Of a stretch of 64,000 nucleotides of DNA, positions 42,634-52,764 are shown in pieces. Under the pieces are notes generated by a model that saw nothing but the letters and a program-made list of their open reading frames with translations, was not told where the DNA came from and did not search any database. The stretch is from Shewanella baltica. GTDB lineage: Bacteria > Pseudomonadota > Gammaproteobacteria > Enterobacterales > Shewanellaceae. Where the stretch lies: positions 3,720,001 through 3,784,000 of the forward strand of contig NZ_UGYM01000002.1 of NCBI RefSeq assembly GCF_900456975.1, given 5' to 3'. Each line of letters starts with the position of its first letter. Within the stretch, counting starts at the first letter, position 1. The position numbers and the translations under genes were made by a program.

Positions 42634-45489
42634 CTATTCCAGCACAGCGCGGTAGATATTGAGCACTCGCTCGGCATGTTCCTCAACCTCTAACACAGGT
42701 AACTGCCCCGCCTTTTGTTGCAGAGTCAGGCGATGATTTTCATCCCTGAGTAAGCAATAGGTTTGGGTTAAATGCTGGGCACTCATCATAGGTAAGAGTT
42801 CAAGCTCAGCCAACACCCCAAAAATCCGCACATTGTCAGACCAAATCGTCAGCTCAGGATACTCATGGGCATTAGCCAGCACTAAGTACTGGGCGATAAA
42901 CTCGATATCTGCAATACCGCCGGGACTCTGTTTTAGATCAAACATGCCATCGCTGGCTTTGAGCAAGTGATCACGCATCTTCTGACGCATCTCACGTACT
43001 GCTTTTTGCAGCTCAGCTTTATCCCGTGGCTTTTCCAATATCGCAGCACGAATTCGGCTAAATTTGACCGCTAAACTATTGTCGCCGAAAACAAAACGCG
43101 AGCGCACTAAGGCTTGATGTTCCCACGTCCACGCCTCGTTAGCTTGGTATTCGCCAAAGCGTTCAATCTCACTGACCATCAAACCCGAGGCGCCAGAAGG
43201 ACGCAAACGCATATCCACTTCATACAACTCACCCGAAGTGGTACGAGTCGAGAACAAATGCAGAATACGCTGGGCGAGTTTGAGGTAGAAATGGCCGACT
43301 TCAATCGGGCGTTCACCATTGGTCTGGCTGTTATCTGCTTTGTTTTCACACAGGAAGACTAAATCGAGATCGGAGCCGTAACCCAACTCTATCCCGCCGA
43401 GCTTGCCATAACCAACAACGGCAAAACCTGTGTCATTGCCCTCAAGGTGAGCGGGCACGCCATGGCGCACTGAAACCTGTTGCCACGCCTGCATCACCAC
43501 TTGTTCTATGATGGCTTCGGCTAAAAAGGTTAAGTGATCGCTCACTTGCATCACAGGTAAAACCCCAGTGACATCGGCGGCGGCGATTTTAAGTTGTTGT
43601 GACAGCTTAAATTGTCGCAGCGCTTCCATCTGCTGCTCCATATCATCCTCGGGCACCCGCAACATGTACTGGCGCAGCTCGCTAGGATAATCATCGATGG
43701 AGGTTGTGTCATAAAGCTGCGATGGATCGATAAGCTCATCGAGCAGCATGGGAAACTTAGCCAACTGCGCGGCAATCCAAGGGCTGGCGCAGCAAAGGCT
43801 CACTAACTGTTGCCGTGCGCCAGGGTTTTCACATAAAAGCTCAAGGTAAGTGGTGCGAGTTAAAATCTGCTCCAGCACCTTAGACACGGGCTCAAAGGCA
43901 GCCGATGGACTCTGTTGATTAATCAACTCTTCCAATAATCTTGGCATTAATTTATCTAAGGTTTCCCGCCCGCGTGGACCAATGGAACGCTTAGTGACAG
44001 TCTCACGCCAGCTACTGAGCATAGGGCACAGCTTGTCATCGTCGATTTGCTGTTCGGCCAATAACGCGACGGCATCATCAATATCTTGCACATGCCACAG
44101 CTGCGTTGTCCAATGCTCAGCCTTTTCTTCGCCTTCTTCACCGCCCACAGTCGCTTTAAAATGACGATGAATTTTGCTCATCGCCGCTTCAATATGGGTA
44201 CGTAAATCGACCTCGTTGGCCATATCGAGCACATGACACAATCGCGCCCAATCGAGTGGATTATTCGGCAAGGTTTGGGTTTGTTTATCGTCTATGGCTT
44301 GCAGTAAATTCTCGACTCGGCGCAGCAGTAAATAGCTGTGTTTAAGCTCATCGACCGCCAAATATTCAAACTGCCCTAAGCTGTAGAGCGTATCGATAGC
44401 GCCGAATAAACTCTGCTGACGCAGCGCAGGCTCGCGGCCACCACGAATTAATTGGAAACTCTGCACCACGAACTCGACCTCACGAATACCGCCCGCGCCG
44501 AGTTTAATATTGTCGGTCAAATGACGGCGACGCACTTCTTGGGCGATGAGTTGCTTCATTTTTCGCAGGGATTCAATCGCTGAGAAGTCGATATAGCGGC
44601 GATACACAAAGGGTCTGAGCAGGCTGTGTAATTCATCGGAGAAATGGCTCCAAGGTCCGAGCGCACGCGCCTTGACCATGGCATAGCGTTCCCAATCTCG
44701 GCCCTGTTCTTGGTAATAATCCTCAAGACCACTAAAACTCACCACCAGCGGCCCACTTTCACCGTAGGGGCGCAAACGCATATCCACGCGGAACACGAAA
44801 CCATCGACGGTAACTTGGTCTAGCAAGTTCACTAACCTTTGTCCCATGCGGATAAAAAATTGTTGATTGTCTAAACTGCGACGACCACCGACGGTTTCAC
44901 CATGTTCAGGGAAAGTGAAAATCAAGTCGATATCGGAGGAGAAATTGAGCTCGCGGCCGCCTAACTTGCCCATGCCTAAAATCAGCAATGGCTGTGCATT
45001 ACCTTCTTTGTCCATCGGCGTGCCGTATTGGGCGCACATATCTTTATAGAGCCAGTCGCGGGCGCAAATCACTAACGCTTCGGCAAGCGCCGACAGATCC
45101 AGCAGAGATTCCTCTAAACTGGCGTAGTCTAAAAAGTCACGCCAGGCTAAGCGCACCATTTGGTAGTTACGAAACCGTCGCAGGCTAGCTTTTGCCATCT
45201 CTTCAGTTGTGGCGCTACTCAGCACTTCGTGTAACTCAAGATCGAAGTTTTTACGCTCAATCAGGCTTAACTCGCCGGCAAACAGCCTATTAATCCACTC
45301 GGGATGTCGGCATAACTGGGCCGCCACGTAATCACTGAGCCCTAGAACCTTTTTGAGTTCTTGCTGCTGGGCAGGTGTTAATTGCGCGAGTCCTTCGGAC
45401 CATACTTCCTCTAACCGCAGCCAGTTGTGCTCAGCGGTTTGATTAACGAGAATAGACAATGACTTATTACTGTCTTTTTGCATGGTCAT
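42634..45489 (-). CDS. glnE: Bifunctional glutamine synthetase adenylyltransferase / adenylyl-removing enzyme GlnE
   Basis: Adds AMP to glutamine synthetase under nitrogen excess and removes it under limitation, in response to PII. 951 residues, the usual length. Two nucleotidyltransferase domains are visible: the N-terminal adenylyl-removing site ('[18 protein letters not shown]', near 165) and the C-terminal adenylyltransferase site ('[20 protein letters not shown]', near 700), each followed by a helical domain. I use the ATG at 45489, with AGGG six bases upstream; an upstream TTG is unlikely. The start region contains a 15-bp palindrome (45515-45529). In E. coli glnE follows ygiF; here ygiF lies 7 kb away. 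Confidence 0.97.
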
Positions 45490-45514
45490 AATAATCCCTA
45501 ACAAATTTAGCTAT

Positions 45515-45529
45515 CGACATATTATGTCG
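45515..45529. promoter_or_regulatory. Palindromic operator candidate, copy 1 (CGACATATTATGTCG)
   Basis: Perfect arms of six to seven bases around ATT. The core GACATATTATGTC recurs at 49363 and (as GACATAATATGTC) at 49397. It lies 26 bp upstream of the glnE ATG and about 200 bp upstream of the divergent lipoprotein gene, so it could act on either. Confidence 0.7.
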
Positions 45530-45727
45530 TAAATGATATAGATTGACGCCACATCATGTTATGTTCGACGAGACTTGCAGCTACCTGATGTAGCACACAA
45601 ATAAAGGTATCCCCTTTTATCTGTGGCATTTAAGGGTACTATAACCTGCGCAGCAGGCATATTGGGCAAGCAGATTATTATTGCCTGCAAGTATTTGAGT
45701 TTTATTTCATTACCATTTGGAGAAAAC

Positions 45728-46702
45728 ATGGCAGGAATGCTAACCCGTGTTCTCACATCGATCCTCTTTTTAGCCGTTATGCTGTCGCTGACGGGTTGTG
45801 GCGATGAGAGACCGGATAAAATCGCGAAGTATCAACAACTCACGCAGCAACGCCTCGCAACGCTCACGACGATGATCGATGACGGGCAGTTGCGTAACGC
45901 TAACCTCTTAAAACAATACACCACACTGTTAAAGCAGCAGAAACCTGATTTAGCCCCATTACTTGATGAATTAGCAAAGGATTCTGGCACCCAAGGTCCC
46001 ATGTATACCTCGCTGAAACGTCGATTAGATGAGTCGAAAGTGGCGAGTAACTTTGCCGATCTCGATCAACAGCTGGCCGAAGCGGAAAATCTTTATCAAG
46101 CCGCTGATCCCAGTTTGTTTAACGATATGTTGTCCGACCCTGTCAACGTGGTTGCCGATATGTCCGACGGCAAACTTGCCCGCGTGAATGCGATTAGCCG
46201 TGAGGCAGCAACATTAGCCAATGGCGGCGAAGATTTTGGTCCAGGCAGTCAGCTAGTTGGTAATCCGTCTTACGGTAACTGGCAAACCGACTCGAGCGGC
46301 ACTTCGTTTTGGGCTTGGTATGGCATGTATTCGATGTTTTCGAATGTCTTCAATCGCCCTGTTTCCTACGATCGTTGGTCGGGTAACCGAGGTTATAGCT
46401 ATTACAATGACGTAGGTCGTTATCGCTATACCTCACCCAAACAAGCGGATGCGCAAAATAAGACCTTCGAACAAACGAAAAAACGTTTCGATTCTCAAGG
46501 TAAGCGCTTCGACAGCCCTTATGCCAAACCGCGTACCGGTGGCACGGCGTTATCCCGTGAAAGCACCAGCACGCCCAAGGCCAGCAACACCACGAGCGCA
46601 AGCAAGAGTTCGAGTAGTAAGTTCCGCTCTAACTATGCTAAAGACAGCAGTTTCCGTAATTCCAGTAATCGCACGACCCGCAGTGTGCGCCGGGGCAAGT
46701 AA
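45728..46702 (+). CDS. Lipoprotein of unknown function, first gene of the membrane-stress-like cluster
   Basis: 324 residues. The signal sequence ends in a lipobox 'SLTGCGDE' (Cys near residue 23), so the mature protein is lipid-anchored. The first half is helical, rich in Leu/Gln/Lys; the second half has a Trp/Tyr/Gly-rich patch ('FWAWYGMYSMFSNVFNRP') and ends in a long Ser/Thr/Lys/Arg-rich basic tail ('SASKSSSSKFRSN'). I do not recognise a named family; position suggests the role of E. coli YjfM, but the sequence does not look like DUF1190. I chose the ATG at 45728 because GGAG precedes it by about six bases and it exposes the signal peptide. It is 13 bases before the DUF350 gene. Confidence 0.85.
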   Translation: MAGMLTRVLTSILFLAVMLSLTGCGDERPDKIAKYQQLTQQRLATLTTMIDDGQLRNANLLKQYTTLLKQQKPDLAPLLDELAKDSGTQGPMYTSLKRRLDESKVASNFADLDQQLAEAENLYQAADPSLFNDMLSDPVNVVADMSDGKLARVNAISREAATLANGGEDFGPGSQLVGNPSYGNWQTDSSGTSFWAWYGMYSMFSNVFNRPVSYDRWSGNRGYSYYNDVGRYRYTSPKQADAQNKTFEQTKKRFDSQGKRFDSPYAKPRTGGTALSRESTSTPKASNTTSASKSSSSKFRSNYAKDSSFRNSSNRTTRSVRRGK

Positions 46703-46715
46703 CTAAGGATTTCCA

Positions 46716-47615
46716 ATGACACTATTTCAGGATTTCGGTATCACACCAGAGCTAGCCATCATTCTGGCTATCGATCTCACCATAGCCGTGATTTTGCTAA
46801 CGCTGATGCGTTATTTGCAAGGTTGGAGCGTAAAGGTTAACAGCAGTAAAGAACTGGCGGAGCGTGATAACTTTGCCTTCGGTATCAGTACCGCGGGCGC
46901 CGTTGCCGCATTGGGTATAGTGCTAACGGGCGCTATCACTGGTGCTGCCGCGCACTCTTATCTTAATGAAGCCATTGGCATGAGCGCCTACGGTTTATTC
47001 GGCTTAGTGCTGATTAAACTGGGTCGTTTCCTCCACGATAAGATTGCGTTAAACGAGTTCGATAAGAACGAGCAAATCATCAAAGGCAATGTGTCTGTCG
47101 CGATTGTCGATGCCAGTGCCGCCATCGCCACTGCGATTATCATCCGCGCCGTGTTGTTATGGGCAGAAGACTTAACCCTAGATACCTTTATCGCTATCTT
47201 CAGCGCCTTTGCGATTTCGCAGTTGATGTTAGTGCTACTGACGCGCTGGCGTGAAAACCGTTTTGCGAGCCGCAATCAAGACTCGTCAATGCAGCAAGCC
47301 TTAGTACAAGGTCATACGGCATTAGCACTGCGTCATGCGGGTTATATGATCGCAATGGCGCTGAGCTTTAACGCTGCCAGCCACTTTATTATATTCAATC
47401 CAACGGCTTATGTGACTAACGTGATCGGTTGGTTAGTGTTCTCAGTCATCATGCTGATCGCGCTTTCCTTACTGCTGTTCGTCGTGAAGAAACTGGTATT
47501 AGCCCGTATCGATTTAGCCGATGAAGTAGAAAGACAACACAATATCGGCATCGCCGCCGTTGAAATGGCGATCAGTATCGCTATCGCACTTATCCTCACG
47601 GCACTGATGGCCTAA
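46716..47615 (+). CDS. DUF350 membrane protein (YjfL-like) with internal duplication
   Basis: 299 residues, eight probable membrane segments in two halves of about 150. Each half carries DUF350 features: in the first 'NFAFGISTAGAVAALGIVL' and 'GNVSVAIVDASAAIATAII' (near 120), in the second 'ALRHAGYMIAMALSF' and 'HNIGIAAVEMAISIAIALIL' at the end. E. coli YjfL is about half this size with one unit, so this is a duplicated, fused form. Function of DUF350 is unknown; it recurs next to PspA-type genes. It lies 13 bp after the lipoprotein gene and four bases before the aminopropyltransferase gene. Confidence 0.9.
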   Translation: MTLFQDFGITPELAIILAIDLTIAVILLTLMRYLQGWSVKVNSSKELAERDNFAFGISTAGAVAALGIVLTGAITGAAAHSYLNEAIGMSAYGLFGLVLIKLGRFLHDKIALNEFDKNEQIIKGNVSVAIVDASAAIATAIIIRAVLLWAEDLTLDTFIAIFSAFAISQLMLVLLTRWRENRFASRNQDSSMQQALVQGHTALALRHAGYMIAMALSFNAASHFIIFNPTAYVTNVIGWLVFSVIMLIALSLLLFVVKKLVLARIDLADEVERQHNIGIAAVEMAISIAIALILTALMA

Positions 47616-47619
47616 TCGA

Positions 47620-49344
47620 ATGCAAGAAACCAGCTTAACCCCCTCGGCGGCTAAACCTAGCCGCCTAGGTTGGTTCGACGATGTCCTATTATTGGGCATC
47701 ATGGCCGTATTAGCAGGCTGCGGCCTGATTTACGAATATCTTTTATCCCACTATGCGGGGCGCATTTTAGGCGCATTAGAAGCCGCCATCTACACCATGA
47801 TTGGCTTGATGATAGTCTCCATGGGGCTAGGTGCCTTCGCCGCTCGTAAGATCCGTGATGCCTTTACCGGTTTTGTGATCTTAGAACTCACAGTCGCACT
47901 CTGTGGCTCACTCGCCATTTTAATCACAGCGGCGGTGATTGGTTTTGGCCAACAACTGCCCTTAATGATTGCCAACACCTTAGGTTTACCACCAGATCAA
48001 CTACCCGAAGGCGGCATGATAGGCTCGCTTCAAAAACTCAGCGAATACTTACCCTATGTGTGGGGCGTGTTACTGGGCCTGATGATAGGTATGGAAATCC
48101 CACTGATCGCCAGGGTGCGCCAGTCTCTTTCTGACGAGCATTTACTGCACAATGCGGGGACAATTTACGGTGCCGATTACATAGGTGCTGGCATAGGTGC
48201 CGCCATTTGGGTGGGCTTTATGCTTGCCATTGATATCCAACTTGCCGCCGCCTTAACTGCCAGCTTTAACCTGTTGGCGGGTTTTGTGTTTATCTGGCGC
48301 TTCTGGCCTAAAATCCGCCGCCCTAAACTGCTTTTGACTGGGCACTTTATCGTGACAGGCATTTTACTCGTGTTAGCCATCCACGGCCCACGCTGGGAAC
48401 AAGAATTTAATAATTTGCTCTATAAAGACAAAGTGGTTTACGCCAAAGCGACACGTTTCCAACAGCTGACCTTCACCGAGCGCCTGCGCGGTAACGGTCT
48501 GCCGCCCGTTTATGCGTTATACATCAATGGTCGCTTACAGTTTTCTAGCATAGACGAACACATCTACCATGCGTTTCTCGTGCATCCCACACTCGCAGCC
48601 AGTGCCCGTCATAACAAGGTGTTGATCATTGGCGGTGGCGATGGACTCGGTCTTAAGCAAGTGCTGCGCTGGGAGCCTGAGCAAGTGACGCTGCTCGATC
48701 TCGATGTCGGCCTAGTGCAATTGTTTAAGTCGCCCGATACGGATATGCCCGAGCGTTTGAGCCGCGCTATGTTGACGCTCAACGGTAATGCGCTAAACGA
48801 TCCCCGTGTCACTGTGATCAACGACGATGCATTTAATGGCGTCGATAAGCTGATTGCCACAGGCGTGAAATACGATGCGATTATCGTGGACTTGCCCGAT
48901 CCGAGCCATCCCGATCTTAATAAGCTGTATTCGGATTATTTCTACCGTAAATTAAAGGAACTTATGAGCAGTGATGGCGCTCTGACTGTACAGTCAACAT
49001 CGCCTTACCATGCCCCTAAGGCCTTTATTTCGGTAGCAAAAACCTTGGCATTGGCAGGATTTGACGTCAAACAGTACCACCATAATGTGCCCAGTTTTGG
49101 CGAATGGGGCTGGAGTATCGCCACCGCAGGCGGACTCGATGCACAACACAGATTAGCTAAGTTAACTGAGCTGCCCATCAAAGATGACTGGCTCACCTTA
49201 GGTTTAGTGGATGGCGCCTTTGAGTTTCCAGCAAATTTTTATAAAGATGCCGCCAAAATAAAACCCAATGAATTGGGTTCGTTGCAGCTGTATCACTACC
49301 ATTTGCAAGATTGGTCCGAGAATCAGGGACTGAATCTTTTTTAA
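47620..49344 (+). CDS. Membrane-anchored spermidine-synthase-like aminopropyltransferase
   Basis: 574 residues in two parts. Residues about 22-250 contain seven or so membrane segments ('EYLLSHYAGRILGALEAAIYTMIGLMIVSMGLGAF' split across two). Residues 260-560 form a SpeE-like Rossmann methyltransferase-fold domain: 'YALYINGRLQFSSIDEHIYH' near 305, the nucleotide motif 'IGGGDGLGL' near 337 and the catalytic-type 'DLPDPSHPDL' near 427, where spermidine synthases have D-x-x-D-P. Soluble SpeE is about half this size. The substrate may be a polyamine, but an amine-modifying role at the membrane is also possible. It is in the middle of the lipoprotein-DUF350 operon and ends 79 bp before the DUF2170 gene. 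Confidence 0.9.
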   Translation: MQETSLTPSAAKPSRLGWFDDVLLLGIMAVLAGCGLIYEYLLSHYAGRILGALEAAIYTMIGLMIVSMGLGAFAARKIRDAFTGFVILELTVALCGSLAILITAAVIGFGQQLPLMIANTLGLPPDQLPEGGMIGSLQKLSEYLPYVWGVLLGLMIGMEIPLIARVRQSLSDEHLLHNAGTIYGADYIGAGIGAAIWVGFMLAIDIQLAAALTASFNLLAGFVFIWRFWPKIRRPKLLLTGHFIVTGILLVLAIHGPRWEQEFNNLLYKDKVVYAKATRFQQLTFTERLRGNGLPPVYALYINGRLQFSSIDEHIYHAFLVHPTLAASARHNKVLIIGGGDGLGLKQVLRWEPEQVTLLDLDVGLVQLFKSPDTDMPERLSRAMLTLNGNALNDPRVTVINDDAFNGVDKLIATGVKYDAIIVDLPDPSHPDLNKLYSDYFYRKLKELMSSDGALTVQSTSPYHAPKAFISVAKTLALAGFDVKQYHHNVPSFGEWGWSIATAGGLDAQHRLAKLTELPIKDDWLTLGLVDGAFEFPANFYKDAAKIKPNELGSLQLYHYHLQDWSENQGLNLF

Positions 49345-49362
49345 TAGGATGAGATAGTGCTT

Positions 49363-49375
49363 GACATATTATGTC
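49363..49375. promoter_or_regulatory. Palindromic operator candidate, copy 2 (GACATATTATGTC)
   Basis: Same 13 bases as the core of the site at 45515. Starts 19 bp after the aminopropyltransferase stop and lies 60 bp upstream of the DUF2170 start. Confidence 0.75.
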
Positions 49376-49396
49376 TCAGTGCTATCTTTGAACACA

Positions 49397-49409
49397 GACA
49401 TAATATGTC
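49397..49409. promoter_or_regulatory. Palindromic operator candidate, copy 3 (GACATAATATGTC)
   Basis: Reverse complement of copy 2. Its centre is 34 bp from that of copy 2, a little over three helical turns, and it lies just upstream of the ribosome-binding site of the DUF2170 gene, where a bound repressor could block transcription. Confidence 0.75.
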
Positions 49410-49422
49410 AATAAGGACAAAT

Positions 49423-49836
49423 ATGAATATCCATACCATTGCCAATCACCTCAACAGTCTTGGCAACACCAGCCAAACTGGCTTTCAATTTGATTGTTAT
49501 CCAATCGATGGTGAAGTCGAAGTGTTGCAAGTGAATGTGGTTGGCCGTGAAGAAATCCCGGTATTTGTATCGGTGACGGACAACCAAGTGCTCTGCATCA
49601 GCTACCTGTGGGGCGAGAACGAAGTAAACCAAGATCGTCGCAGTGAAATGTTTGAAACCATGCTAGAGCTCAACATTCCAATGCCTCTGTCATCCTTTGC
49701 AAAAATTGATGACAAATACGTAGTTTATGGTGCGCTATCACTACAATCTAGCATGCTCGAAATCGAGCAAGAATTATCAGTTTTATCCGATAACTGTTTA
49801 GAAGTTATCGATGAAATGGTCGATTATCTGAAATAA
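49423..49836 (+). CDS. DUF2170 protein (YjfI-like)
   Basis: 137 residues, soluble, acidic. Belongs by look to DUF2170, represented by E. coli YjfI; no catalytic motif is visible and its function is unknown. The family occurs next to PspA/IM30-type genes. I start at the ATG at 49423 with AAGGA upstream; a longer frame starting at 49357 reads through one of the palindromes and is implausible. First gene of a likely second transcription unit of the cluster, 11 bp ahead of the PspA-like gene. Confidence 0.85.
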   Translation: MNIHTIANHLNSLGNTSQTGFQFDCYPIDGEVEVLQVNVVGREEIPVFVSVTDNQVLCISYLWGENEVNQDRRSEMFETMLELNIPMPLSSFAKIDDKYVVYGALSLQSSMLEIEQELSVLSDNCLEVIDEMVDYLK

Positions 49837-49847
49837 GGAGCCACAAA

Positions 49848-50537
49848 ATGGGCATTCTGAATAAAATTTTAACAGCGTTTCGTGGTGGTGCTACCGAAGT
49901 GGGTCAAGGCATCGTTGACGCAAACTCAACCCGTATTTTCGAACAGGAAATCCGTGACGCAGAAAAGCATTTAACCAATGCTAAACGTGAACTGACCGAT
50001 GTTATGGCGAAAGAAATGCAAGCCAGCCGTGAAATCGACCGCCTGAAACGTTCGATTGCCGAACACGAAGGTTATGCGACTCAAGCATTGGACAAAGGTA
50101 ATGAAGCCTTAGCAATTGAAATTGCAGAGAAGATTGCCGAGTTAGATCAAGAGCTGTCTGAGCAACAAAGCGCCAACGATAGCTTTAGCGCCCATGCTGC
50201 ACGTTTGAAAGACTTAGTGAAGAAAACCGAGCGCCAACTGTCTGATTATCAACGTCAGCTGAGCATGGTTAAAACCACTGAAAGCGTGCAAAAAGCCACG
50301 GCTACCATTACTGACTCGTTTGCGTCTAGCAACTCTAAGCTGCTGAACGCTAAAGATTCACTCGAGCGCATCAAGGCTCGTCAGCAACAGTTTGACGACC
50401 GCCTGAAAGCGGCAGAAACCTTAGCCGATGAAAACAGTGACAAGTCACTGCAATCTAAGCTAGCCGAAGCCGGTATTGGTGAGCAGAAGTCGAATGCAAA
50501 TGCTGTGCTAGACCGAATCAAAGCACGTAAAAGCTAA
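49848..50537 (+). CDS. PspA/IM30-family membrane-stress protein (YjfJ-like)
   Basis: 229 residues, almost wholly coiled coil. The N-terminal amphipathic stretch 'GILNKILTAFRGGATEVGQ' would bind membranes, and the 'IFEQEIRDAEKHLTNAKREL' segment is the family signature helix. PspA-type proteins are ESCRT-III-like and form rods or rings that stabilise stressed membranes. A PspF-type activator or pspBC genes are not present, so this is the second paralogue type, like E. coli YjfJ. Preceded by AAGGAG. A terminator follows at 50552. Confidence 0.93.
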   Translation: MGILNKILTAFRGGATEVGQGIVDANSTRIFEQEIRDAEKHLTNAKRELTDVMAKEMQASREIDRLKRSIAEHEGYATQALDKGNEALAIEIAEKIAELDQELSEQQSANDSFSAHAARLKDLVKKTERQLSDYQRQLSMVKTTESVQKATATITDSFASSNSKLLNAKDSLERIKARQQQFDDRLKAAETLADENSDKSLQSKLAEAGIGEQKSNANAVLDRIKARKS

Positions 50538-50551
50538 GCAATGATTGACCG

Positions 50552-50605
50552 AATGCCGAGTCTCAGTGGGATCATCACCCCCTACTGACCTCGGCATTTT
50601 TTTGT
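50552..50605 (+). terminator. Intrinsic terminator after the PspA-like gene
   Basis: AATGCCGAG pairs with CTCGGCATT followed by TTTTTTG, with a loop of about 29 bases that can itself form a small GGGG/CCCC-type stem. It would separate the PspA-like gene from the DUF2491 gene, at least partly. Confidence 0.75.
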
Positions 50606-50699
50606 TTCATCCGCATAAAATAATTGACCACTATTGCCCGTTACGATCCGCAGCCAATCGATTTGAAGCCGCACGCGAGCATAGTCAGCAGGAGTCACT

Positions 50700-51353
50700 A
50701 TGGGATTTTTCAATAGTATTTTTGGTAAGAAAGCAGCGCCACAGCGCGAGCTCAATCACCCATCCCAGCTCAAAGTGGGCGATATGATCTCAATTGATGA
50801 CAGTTTTGCCCTGCCGCCACAACTTCGTGGTCAACAATTGAGGGTCGAAGCCGTACATACCTACGAGTCTGAACGTAAACAGCAAACCGAATGGTTACTC
50901 AAAGGTCATGGCAGCGACACACTCTTTTTAAGTATCGAAGAAGACGACGAAACCTATCTCGCCTTTTCGATTAAGATTTCCCGCGCCCAAGTGGAACAGT
51001 TATTCGATCTTGAGCAGTTCAGCGCCCTGTTCGATGAGCCGGGTCATACCGAGTTAACCACTCAAATATTACCGGCCGACTTAGCGGAACAACTGGAACA
51101 ATGGCTTGGAAAGCAATATCACCAAGTGACGTTTGCCGCTTTTGGCTATTTCCATCGTCAGGATTACCGCGGTCAAAAACCACCACAAGACGCCAATGGC
51201 GCCACGGGTGAGCCCTTCGAGTACTATTTACTGCTCGATGACGACGAAAACTGCGCCGTCGAAGTGGAAGTCTACGAAGGTGGCGACACAGATGTTGTCT
51301 TGACCCTGTATCGTCCACTGACGGATATTCGAGATTACTGGCCAGCGAAATAA
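50700..51353 (+). CDS. DUF2491 protein (YjfK-like)
   Basis: 217 residues. The N-terminal 'MGFFNSIFGKKAA' resembles a short amphipathic or membrane-touching helix, and the rest is a mixed alpha/beta, acidic domain ending in 'YRPLTDIRDYW'. Family DUF2491 is known from E. coli YjfK, which sits next to YjfI and YjfJ as here; no biochemical function is established to my knowledge. Ribosome-binding site AGGAG upstream. A hairpin follows its stop. Confidence 0.88.
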   Translation: MGFFNSIFGKKAAPQRELNHPSQLKVGDMISIDDSFALPPQLRGQQLRVEAVHTYESERKQQTEWLLKGHGSDTLFLSIEEDDETYLAFSIKISRAQVEQLFDLEQFSALFDEPGHTELTTQILPADLAEQLEQWLGKQYHQVTFAAFGYFHRQDYRGQKPPQDANGATGEPFEYYLLLDDDENCAVEVEVYEGGDTDVVLTLYRPLTDIRDYWPAK

Positions 51354-51364
51354 CCCAAAAATAA

Positions 51365-51390
51365 GATAAAGTGCGTGCTCGCACTTTATC
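51365..51390. terminator. Hairpin after the DUF2491 gene
   Basis: GATAAAGTGCG-TGCT-CGCACTTTATC, eleven perfect pairs with a four-base loop, twelve bases after the stop. No long T-run follows, so termination may be weak. Confidence 0.6.
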
Positions 51391-51454
51391 GATAATCCCA
51401 ATACAATCTCACAGATAAGCGCTAGAAACGGTTGATAGCAATAGGTAATACGCC

Positions 51455-51784
51455 ATGAGTAAAACCAAACACCCTCTCCCCGAGCAATGGTTGAAGAACC
51501 AACAGGCCGCAAAAGCAACGCAAGTGGCTTTCGATCTCGATGAAAAATTTCAATACTCAATTCGTAAAGCCGCGTTAGATGCAGGCGTGAGCCCTTCGGA
51601 TCAAATTCGCACTATTTTGGGCTTGAGCGTATCGAAGCGGCCATCGCGTCCGCGCCTTACCGTGTCACTCAATGCCGATGATTATGTGCAACTGGCAGAA
51701 AAATATGGGTTAAGCGCCGATTCGCAGCTAGAAATTAAACGCCGTGTACTCGACGATTTAGTTCACTTTGTGGATGAAACCTAA
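51455..51784 (+). CDS. Small protein with two tandem ribbon-helix-helix-like motifs, candidate cluster regulator
   Basis: 109 residues; not a family I can name. Residues 23-57 fit a beta strand with alternating residues ('QVAFDLDEKF') and two helices around a turn ('GVSPSDQIRTILGL'), as in Arc/MetJ/CopG-type proteins. Residues 66-103 repeat this shape: 'RLTVSLNADDYVQLAEKYG' then 'SADSQLEIKRRVLDDL'. Ribbon-helix-helix proteins work as dimers that insert a two-stranded sheet into palindromic DNA; two motifs in one chain would make an internal pseudo-dimer. It lies within the PspA-DUF2491 cluster, so it is my candidate for the protein that reads the GACATAWTATGTC sites. DNA binding is inference. 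Confidence 0.7.
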   Translation: MSKTKHPLPEQWLKNQQAAKATQVAFDLDEKFQYSIRKAALDAGVSPSDQIRTILGLSVSKRPSRPRLTVSLNADDYVQLAEKYGLSADSQLEIKRRVLDDLVHFVDET

Positions 51785-51930
51785 CGCCGCAATCACTTCA
51801 CGCGTCAGCCCTTTATGTAAATGGCTGGCGTGATTAATCGACAAATAGCCCTTTTATTGACTAAGACAATTTACTCATAGCCTAAAGTCTTTTACTTTAG
51901 TTGAGATATTCGCCGCACTTAACAGGGATC

Positions 51931-52764
51931 ATGTTTGGCATGACAGATAAAACCCCATGGTCACTTCGCACCCTTGGCACCCCTTCTCCATTCGAAATGG
52001 CGATGATGCTGTTATCCTTGCTGTCGGTGATCATAGTGCTCGTCATGACCTTCGGTCGCCTCGATAGCGAAACCTACCGCTTACTCTTTTTCGTCGATAC
52101 CAGCATTTGTATGATCTTCATGATCAACTTCTTTATTGGGTTGGTCCGTGCTCGCGATAAGCGTTTTTTCATTCGGCATCATTGGATTGATTTTATTGCC
52201 AGTATTCCGGCAATTGAAGCCCTGCGCATGGCGCGGCTGTTTCAAATACTGCGGGTAATACGCCTGATCCGTATGAGTCGTTCACTGCTGCTTCCGCTGA
52301 TCAAACAACGTAAACAAGCCACCTTAGCCAGTTTGCTCGTCGCCATGGTGACGATTCTGACCTTGGCCTCAGTGATCATTTTGATCGTCGAAAGCGGCAC
52401 CGAAGGCGCTAATATCCAAACCGCAGAACAAGCCATTTGGTGGGCGTTAGTCACTATCTCGACTGTCGGTTACGGCGATTATTATCCGGTGACGACAGCT
52501 GGCCATATCATAGGCGGTATTGTGATTGTCAGCGGCGTGAGCTTTTTTGGGGTGATCTCAGGTTATATGGCGTCGGTATTTGTCGCACCCGATGAAACTG
52601 AGCGTCAAGAACGCCAAGAGGCCCATAAAGCCGAAATAAAGTCAGAGCTTGAATTAGCCTTAGCGAGAATGGAAGAAAACCAGCAGAAAATGGAACAAAA
52701 CCAAGCGCAAATGCTCGCAAAAATTGCAGAGCTTAAACAGGTTATCGAAACCAGAAATAACTGA
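51931..52764 (+). CDS. Voltage-gated-type K+ channel with C-terminal coiled coil
   Basis: About 277 residues. Six membrane segments can be traced at about 15-40, 50-72, 82-100, a basic S4-like helix near 105-125 ('LRVIRLIRMSRSLLL'), 135-160 and 200-225. The pore loop holds the K+ selectivity filter 'TISTVGYGD' near 175. The cytoplasmic end (about 235-277) is a Glu/Gln/Lys-rich coiled coil ('EENQQKMEQNQAQMLAKIAEL'), likely for tetramer assembly. It belongs to the Kch/Kv-like ion channels. The start is uncertain: ATG at 51931 (AGGG close upstream) or 51940. It closes the PspA-type cluster, suggesting a link between membrane stress and membrane potential. Confidence 0.9.
   Translation: MFGMTDKTPWSLRTLGTPSPFEMAMMLLSLLSVIIVLVMTFGRLDSETYRLLFFVDTSICMIFMINFFIGLVRARDKRFFIRHHWIDFIASIPAIEALRMARLFQILRVIRLIRMSRSLLLPLIKQRKQATLASLLVAMVTILTLASVIILIVESGTEGANIQTAEQAIWWALVTISTVGYGDYYPVTTAGHIIGGIVIVSGVSFFGVISGYMASVFVAPDETERQERQEAHKAEIKSELELALARMEENQQKMEQNQAQMLAKIAELKQVIETRNN

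Follow-up and report, generated by a model that had tools for sequence, protein, structure and literature searches.

A palindrome shared by DUF2170-PspA and other membrane-protein operons is a probable operator of an envelope-stress regulon in Shewanella and its relatives

The main text of Ravi et al. 2024 (PMC11237479) describes operons that combine CesT/Tir and PspA proteins with a spermidine-synthase-like gene and, in some cases, have as final gene one for a ribbon-helix-helix (RHH) domain factor. We analysed a cluster of this kind in a 64,000-nucleotide stretch of Shewanella baltica (assembly GCF_900456975.1, contig NZ_UGYM01000002.1, positions 3,720,001 to 3,784,000; hereafter the window), together with a 13-bp palindrome, GACATAWTATGTC, that lies upstream of its genes. 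The cluster matches group 2 of Ravi et al., with a DUF2170-PspA dyad, a spermidine-synthase-like fusion, DUF350, a lipoprotein (recognised here by its N-terminus and not by the domain used in that paper), DUF4178 and the optional RHH gene. What we add to that operon is a putative palindromic operator, a wider regulon and a link between the motif and one gene. The main text of PMC11237479 does not contain the words 'HtpX', 'NfeD' or 'operator' and has 'binding site' once. In literature searches covering titles, beginnings of abstracts and passages, with subscription papers and the RegPrecise database outside their scope, we found no description of the operator, the regulon, the promoter geometry or the gene-motif link, and the operator word itself returned only matches unrelated by title.

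The pspA system of Bacillus is controlled by an extracytoplasmic function (ECF) sigma factor. According to PMC8581546, pspA-ydjGHI and flotillin of Bacillus subtilis likewise link PspA functionally to an SPFH protein and to membrane partners during stress. PspA-SPFH coupling is already known in Bacillus, as is the DUF2170-PspA operon with an RHH factor in some cases (PMC11237479); the Bacillus genes form one operon, whereas here separate operons are apparently tied by a shared operator. The E. coli Psp system, as presented in parts of PMC9239133, likewise answers membrane stress through PspA and has a dedicated regulator. That regulator, PspF, is an AAA+ enhancer-binding protein, whereas the candidate here is small and RHH-like, and in place of a sigma-54 element, which we did not find on the coding strand around either operon start, we see a sigma-70-type promoter with palindromic operators. 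The same DUF2170-PspA pair is present in the Pseudomonas aeruginosa bac operon as BacA (DUF2170) and BacB (PspA), for which a figure legend reports conserved -24 and -12 dinucleotides (PMC10948618).

We consider it likely that a membrane/envelope-stress regulon of marine bacteria has GACATAWTATGTC as its operator, and that the 109-residue protein encoded from position 51455 is its binder and acts as a repressor through core promoter elements. This reading draws on the sites, their conservation, the neighbouring genes, the co-occurrence of the motif with one gene and the overlap of the sites with promoters. Three exact copies lie in the window, GACATATTATGTC twice on the + strand and its reverse complement GACATAATATGTC once. 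They are placed just as the preliminary description had stated, with a centre spacing of 34 bp in the tandem pair, whose end lies 13 bp before the DUF2170 start, and a single copy between glnE and the lipoprotein gene. No further match with up to two mismatches was found in the 64 kb. Base composition predicts 0.0025 copies per 64 kb (P of at least three ~2.5e-9) and 0.2 in the 5.3-Mb genome, where six exact copies are present, that is, few copies rather than many unrelated ones. The word is narrow, because no excess is seen at two or more mismatches: with up to three we counted 8 matches in the window against 15.7 expected, and with up to two there were 69 in the genome against 76 for the reversed control, which makes the relaxed search uninformative. 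Only exact and near-exact copies are in excess. Four sites in the genome differ by one mismatch, three upstream of genes and one within a coding sequence, and were not counted as targets. The genes behind the upstream ones, AIM24-like (by likeness to locus L027), Ca/Na-antiporter-like (by eye) and Tim44 (by Pfam), might be weak targets (L004 2336, L006 2347 and L007 2365).

The other three exact copies in the genome precede htpX, an NfeD gene with two Band_7/SPFH genes, and a bPH_5 (PH-domain) gene. The earlier view that the palindrome flanks the PspA-like cluster therefore holds for the copies found there and is otherwise too narrow, also in relatives, where sites precede another pspA, a YidC-like insertase and other genes. 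All 60 same-genus genomes, our own included, carry 4-9 copies, 361 in total against 2 for the reversed pattern; together with the counts in the genome and the P value, this rules out a chance origin of the copies. Reading site by site was done in 12 of these genomes, own included, for part of the listed places, so that the target sets may be incomplete. The htpX site was found in 12/12, the nfeD-SPFH site in 10/12 by NfeD match, with one more SPFH locus whose first gene was unmatched, and the PH-gene site in 7/12. Among the exceptions, one site lies within a coding sequence and two have another or no clear target. Pairs upstream of a CAAX-protease-like gene occur in two genomes, with Pfam run on one of them, and one more genome has a site before an AIM24-family gene.

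Conservation of the motif ahead of the cluster extends beyond the genus. A scan of GTDB genomes for the tandem arrangement, designed for centre spacings of 27-45 bp, gave at least 117 loci, and the taxa among the matches listed include Shewanella, Parashewanella, Colwellia, Pseudoalteromonas, Thalassotalea, Moritella, Kangiella, Aliikangiella, Motilimonas, Ketobacter, Gynuella, metagenome-assembled genomes (MAGs) and others. Among these matches, 101 of 117 pairs stand at DUF2170. Two of the remaining 16 are at a stretch edge beside the aminopropyltransferase gene, two have a PspA-like open reading frame (ORF) without DUF2170 match, and 12 precede other genes, such as those for alpha-carbonic anhydrase, for small membrane proteins and, at two loci of which one was run through Pfam, for the YidC-like 60KD_IMP insertase. 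The carbonic anhydrase loci, four from Colwellia (Pfam run on one), fit poorly with a membrane-repair theme. Of 119 neighbouring pairs, 89 were spaced by 34-36 bp, and all others but one had 27-40 bp, the lower bound coming from the scan. Distant clusters hold 15- and 18-bp arrays, so the operators seem to act as separate blocks. A 7/8-bp step between half-sites is also seen in distant clusters.

Copy numbers in 17 genomes to which these loci led ranged from 2 to 12 (the 12 in a Colwellia MAG), with no control match in any. Both copies of the two-copy genomes, which include a Kangiella, a Moritella, one Pseudoalteromonas and two Aliikangiella, form the tandem pair at the DUF2170/PspA genes. 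From seven genomes with additional copies we read 24 further single sites: nfeD-SPFH (6), htpX (2), nhaA (2), Yip1-domain (2), PH gene (1), YidC-like (1), Band_7 (1), pspA of another type (3, two with a small ORF between), genes resembling YqiJ by eye and without Pfam match (3), and genes of other kinds (3). Pfam confirmed PspA twice, Yip1 twice, NhaA once and Band_7 once, the rest being assigned by BLAST or by eye, and several sites lie between divergent genes, where the choice of target is partly a judgement. The other pspA type, usually under PspF, stands behind a site in two Colwellia and in Endozoicomonas sp. G2_1, one of the three identified by eye. The site at the nhaA Na+/H+ antiporter gene occurs in two Colwellia genomes (Pfam run on one), with a regulator-like gene diverging on the opposite side.

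The 51455 protein was already proposed as a candidate regulator in the preliminary description, and by co-occurrence it is the best candidate. Its gene lies on the same strand, ~0.7-1.9 kb past DUF2170, in 65/65 tandem loci where 2.6 kb or more was available; in seven loci, DUF2170, PspA and the 109-aa gene were the only ones recognised among the queries despite >2.2 kb upstream. Of 17 genomes that lacked the gene in the ORF map of the fetched tandem locus, 16 encode it (the same search also took three genomes already showing it), and it is present too in genomes whose fetched tandem precedes other genes. Among 276 genomes of the class, 12 carry the 109-aa gene, all with DUF2170. The exact motif was found in 8 of these 12 against 4 of the 264 without the gene, and at least two copies in 7 against 0. 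Since the reversed control is present in 7 of the 276, all without the gene, the four single copies in gene-less genomes are at chance level. When only the 22 genomes of the class with DUF2170 are considered, the motif is in 8/12 with the gene and 1/10 without, where it stands on a different contig. Of the 12 gene-positive genomes, the four that lack an exact copy carry one or two CCCATAATATGTC-type variants just before DUF2170; in two of these four, the gene and DUF2170 lie on different contigs. In one further genome a CCCATAATATGTC-type pair is present and the gene was not found, the contig ending soon after. Similarly, among 197 genomes of the order, the motif occurs in 52 of 65 with the gene and 8 of 132 without, and at least two copies in 48 against 1, with the control in 3. 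The motif thus tracks the 109-aa gene rather than DUF2170-PspA as such, and these counts disfavour a motif linked to DUF2170/PspA independently of the gene. Together with the conservation, they support well the earlier proposal of a dedicated regulator for both halves of the cluster.

Variant operators were found within two families. In the first, 14/14 genomes carry the 109-aa gene, 13 of them without an exact copy and the last with one, and all 14 keep the tandem layout but differ in the centre of the palindrome, GACAT-WWW-ATGTC, as TTGACATATAATGNC followed by GACATTTAATGTC or GACATTAAATGTC. In the second, three gene-positive genomes have one GACTTATTATGTC before DUF2170. These variants suggest that GACAT-N3-ATGTC may be the true core. 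A comparison by eye for protein residues co-varying with the variant operators (CCCATAWTATGTC; GACATWWWATGTC; GACTTATTATGTC) gave nothing clear.

The N-terminal part of the 51455 protein contains a beta-alpha-alpha unit that resembles RHH repressors. No Pfam or NCBIfam model matched the protein above its cut-off, so no curated RHH family cut-off was reached; among 47 members, weak RHH matches were to NikA-like (8), FitA-like RHH (3), RHH_1 (1) and RHH_10 (1) models, and the commonest weak match was Phage_RB18_ORF43 (13). The second half is RHH-like by eye only, and a half-versus-half profile comparison gave no convincing repeat. A search of solved structures by sequence found no relative, its one match being a sigma factor (E 0.47). 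Short half-sites at 7/8-bp steps are known for omega and MetJ. With the CopG/Arc/omega/MetJ repressors the candidate shares the beta-helix-helix N-terminal part and such half-sites, and it differs from them by its 109-aa chain, possibly of two tandem RHH units, and by the lack of a Pfam RHH match at cut-off.

We then compared the sites with promoters, using matrices of E. coli promoter frequencies on oriented unique sites, with shuffled flanks and palindromes kept as control. The best sigma-70-like promoter had a TTGACA overlapping operator 1 in 101/105 DUF2170 sites (14% when shuffled). The same -35 offset was best in 8/8 PH-gene sites (14%) and in 27/40 lipoprotein sites (20%), and at htpX the TATTAT inside the palindrome was the -10 in 15/15 (6%). 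In unique homologous sites, TT precedes operator 1 in 102/105 and operator 2 in 9/108. This promoter geometry favours repression. Control of the divergent gene, a putative glnE by the name given in the preliminary description, had been suggested as a possibility. Where glnE diverges from the lipoprotein gene, an exact site is present at this place in 27/28 loci against 3/13 with another neighbour, taxa and neighbourhood being confounded in this comparison; in those three loci the site goes with the lipoprotein gene, toward which the promoter-like geometry points in the 27 of 40 sites above. A search with the sigma-54 consensus TGGCAC-N5-TTGCW, allowing up to two mismatches, gave 40 matches in the window against 42.6 expected, none of them on the + strand in 45500-45730 or 49300-49420; one two-mismatch match lies on the - strand (49304-49319), inside the aminopropyltransferase gene. 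Sigma-54 control thus has no supporting element by this consensus. Pfam identified no PspF among the eight proteins of 45728-52761, the rest of the genome not having been searched for pspF.

In the mechanism that we propose, the RHH-like 51455 protein would bind each GACATA half-site as one unit, two units filling the palindrome, and would repress by occupying core promoter elements. One of the palindromes at DUF2170-pspA coincides with the -35 box and the second is near the transcription start; the operator overlaps the -35 at the lipoprotein and PH-domain operons and covers the -10 at htpX. Under stress, repression would be lifted and the following induced together: DUF2170-PspA with the repressor itself, HtpX, NfeD-SPFH, the PH-domain protein and the operon for the aminopropyltransferase, DUF350 and the lipoprotein. 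The likeliest working would be autorepression with co-repression of membrane-repair genes; binding by this protein, repression over activation, autoregulation and the stress signal are what we infer from sequence comparison. Because the DUF2170-PspA-RHH core recurs, DUF2170 or PspA could be a natural anti-repressor. More tentatively, and with a probability below one half, a small, perhaps tandem RHH repressor encoded with DUF2170-PspA might be kept off DNA by the DUF2170-PspA pair on membrane damage, which would be a distinct mode of control for PspA responses. It might have begun as a local autorepressor, as in two-copy Kangiella, Moritella and others, and have become, in Shewanella, Colwellia and their relatives, a membrane-repair regulon joining PspA, SPFH-NfeD, HtpX, a YidC-like insertase and a second pspA. 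As in PspA-PspF, PspA would hold a regulator, with reverse sign.

Several observations weigh against the 109-aa protein as the binder. It is a small RHH-like protein without a confident family match; genome G438 has two copies and the gene was not found in it, nor was it found for one MAG locus, and genome G385 has the gene and five copies, none in the stretch before DUF2170. The operators could then be bound by another, unlinked transcription factor, the 109-aa protein being a co-regulated operon member, for example an anti-factor. We regard this as rather unlikely, since the motif follows the 109-aa gene and not DUF2170-PspA, and the gene is in every tandem locus with room and also where the fetched tandem precedes other genes. 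Moreover, no other constant regulator gene was recognised beside the sites, where unlabelled ORF clusters were partly annotated and unlinked regulators were not searched for.

The nfeD sites fall outside the geometry described above (5/14 at the commonest place). A TGATATAGT-like extended -10 lies well downstream of them, starting at offset 34 from the site start in 5/14. Such a layout is common for activators, and the same protein might be an activator or a dual regulator. This seems unlikely to us, because the htpX site covers the -10 in all 15 cases, operator 2 of pspA lies downstream of the -10, and operator 1 holds a full TTGACA, which an activator would not need. Finally, a -10-like TATTAT and part of a -35 (GACA) can be read within the word, which would suit a promoter part or a repeat element and not a protein operator. 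Yet both half-sites are kept even in operator 2, where the TT completing TTGACA is mostly missing, copies are few per genome and repeatedly stand before the same genes, and half-sites recur at 7/8-bp steps in distant clusters, which makes this explanation very improbable. Repression by the 109-aa protein is the reading that we retain.

The features of the locus are collected in Table 1. The product of the lipoprotein gene matched no Pfam family above its cut-off. Upstream of the candidate repressor gene, the interval from pspA to DUF4178 holds a hairpin that points to possible attenuation; as it is strong and terminator-like, part of the expression of the repressor gene may depend on read-through.

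Table 1. Features of the DUF2170-PspA cluster and its putative operators (positions in the window)
Feature	Position	Strand	Basis
Putative glnE (name from the preliminary description), divergent neighbour	42634..45504	-	
Putative -35 TCGACA of lipoprotein operon, overlaps operator	45514..45519	+	read from sequence and site comparison
Putative palindromic operator GACATATTATGTC, glnE/lipoprotein intergenic	45516..45528	.	exact match
Putative -10 TATAGA, 17-bp spacer	45537..45542	+	read from sequence and site comparison
Lipoprotein gene, first in upstream operon	45728..46702	+	N-terminus by eye
DUF350 membrane protein	46716..47615	+	PF03994, 5.1e-38
Aminopropyltransferase with N-terminal membrane part (Spermine_synth)	47620..49344	+	family match
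-35 hexamer TTGACA within operator 1	49361..49366	+	promoter reading
Putative operator 1 of tandem pair, GACATATTATGTC	49363..49375	.	exact match
-10 hexamer TATCTT, TG before it, 16-bp spacer	49383..49388	+	promoter reading
Putative operator 2 of tandem pair, GACATAATATGTC, between -10 box and DUF2170 start	49397..49409	.	exact match
DUF2170 protein (YjfI/BacA-like, CesT-like)	49423..49836	+	PF09938, 6.8e-37; CesT likeness from papers
PspA/IM30 family protein, YjfJ type	49848..50537	+	PF04012, 8.4e-40
Strong hairpin then T run 3' of pspA, probable terminator or attenuator	50551..50599	+	-26.3 kcal/mol, z -5.4
DUF4178 protein	50700..51353	+	PF13785, barely over cut-off
109-aa candidate repressor, residues 17-58 ribbon-helix-helix-like	51455..51784	+	sequence comparison
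Ion-channel protein, often next after candidate repressor gene	51940..52764	+	family match

If true, the proposed repressor and its operator would equip the widespread, unexplained DUF2170-PspA operons with a regulator, its binding site and a defined set of genes, and would give a readable operator for spotting further regulon members. They would also join PspA, SPFH/NfeD, HtpX and a polyamine-synthase-like enzyme in one response.
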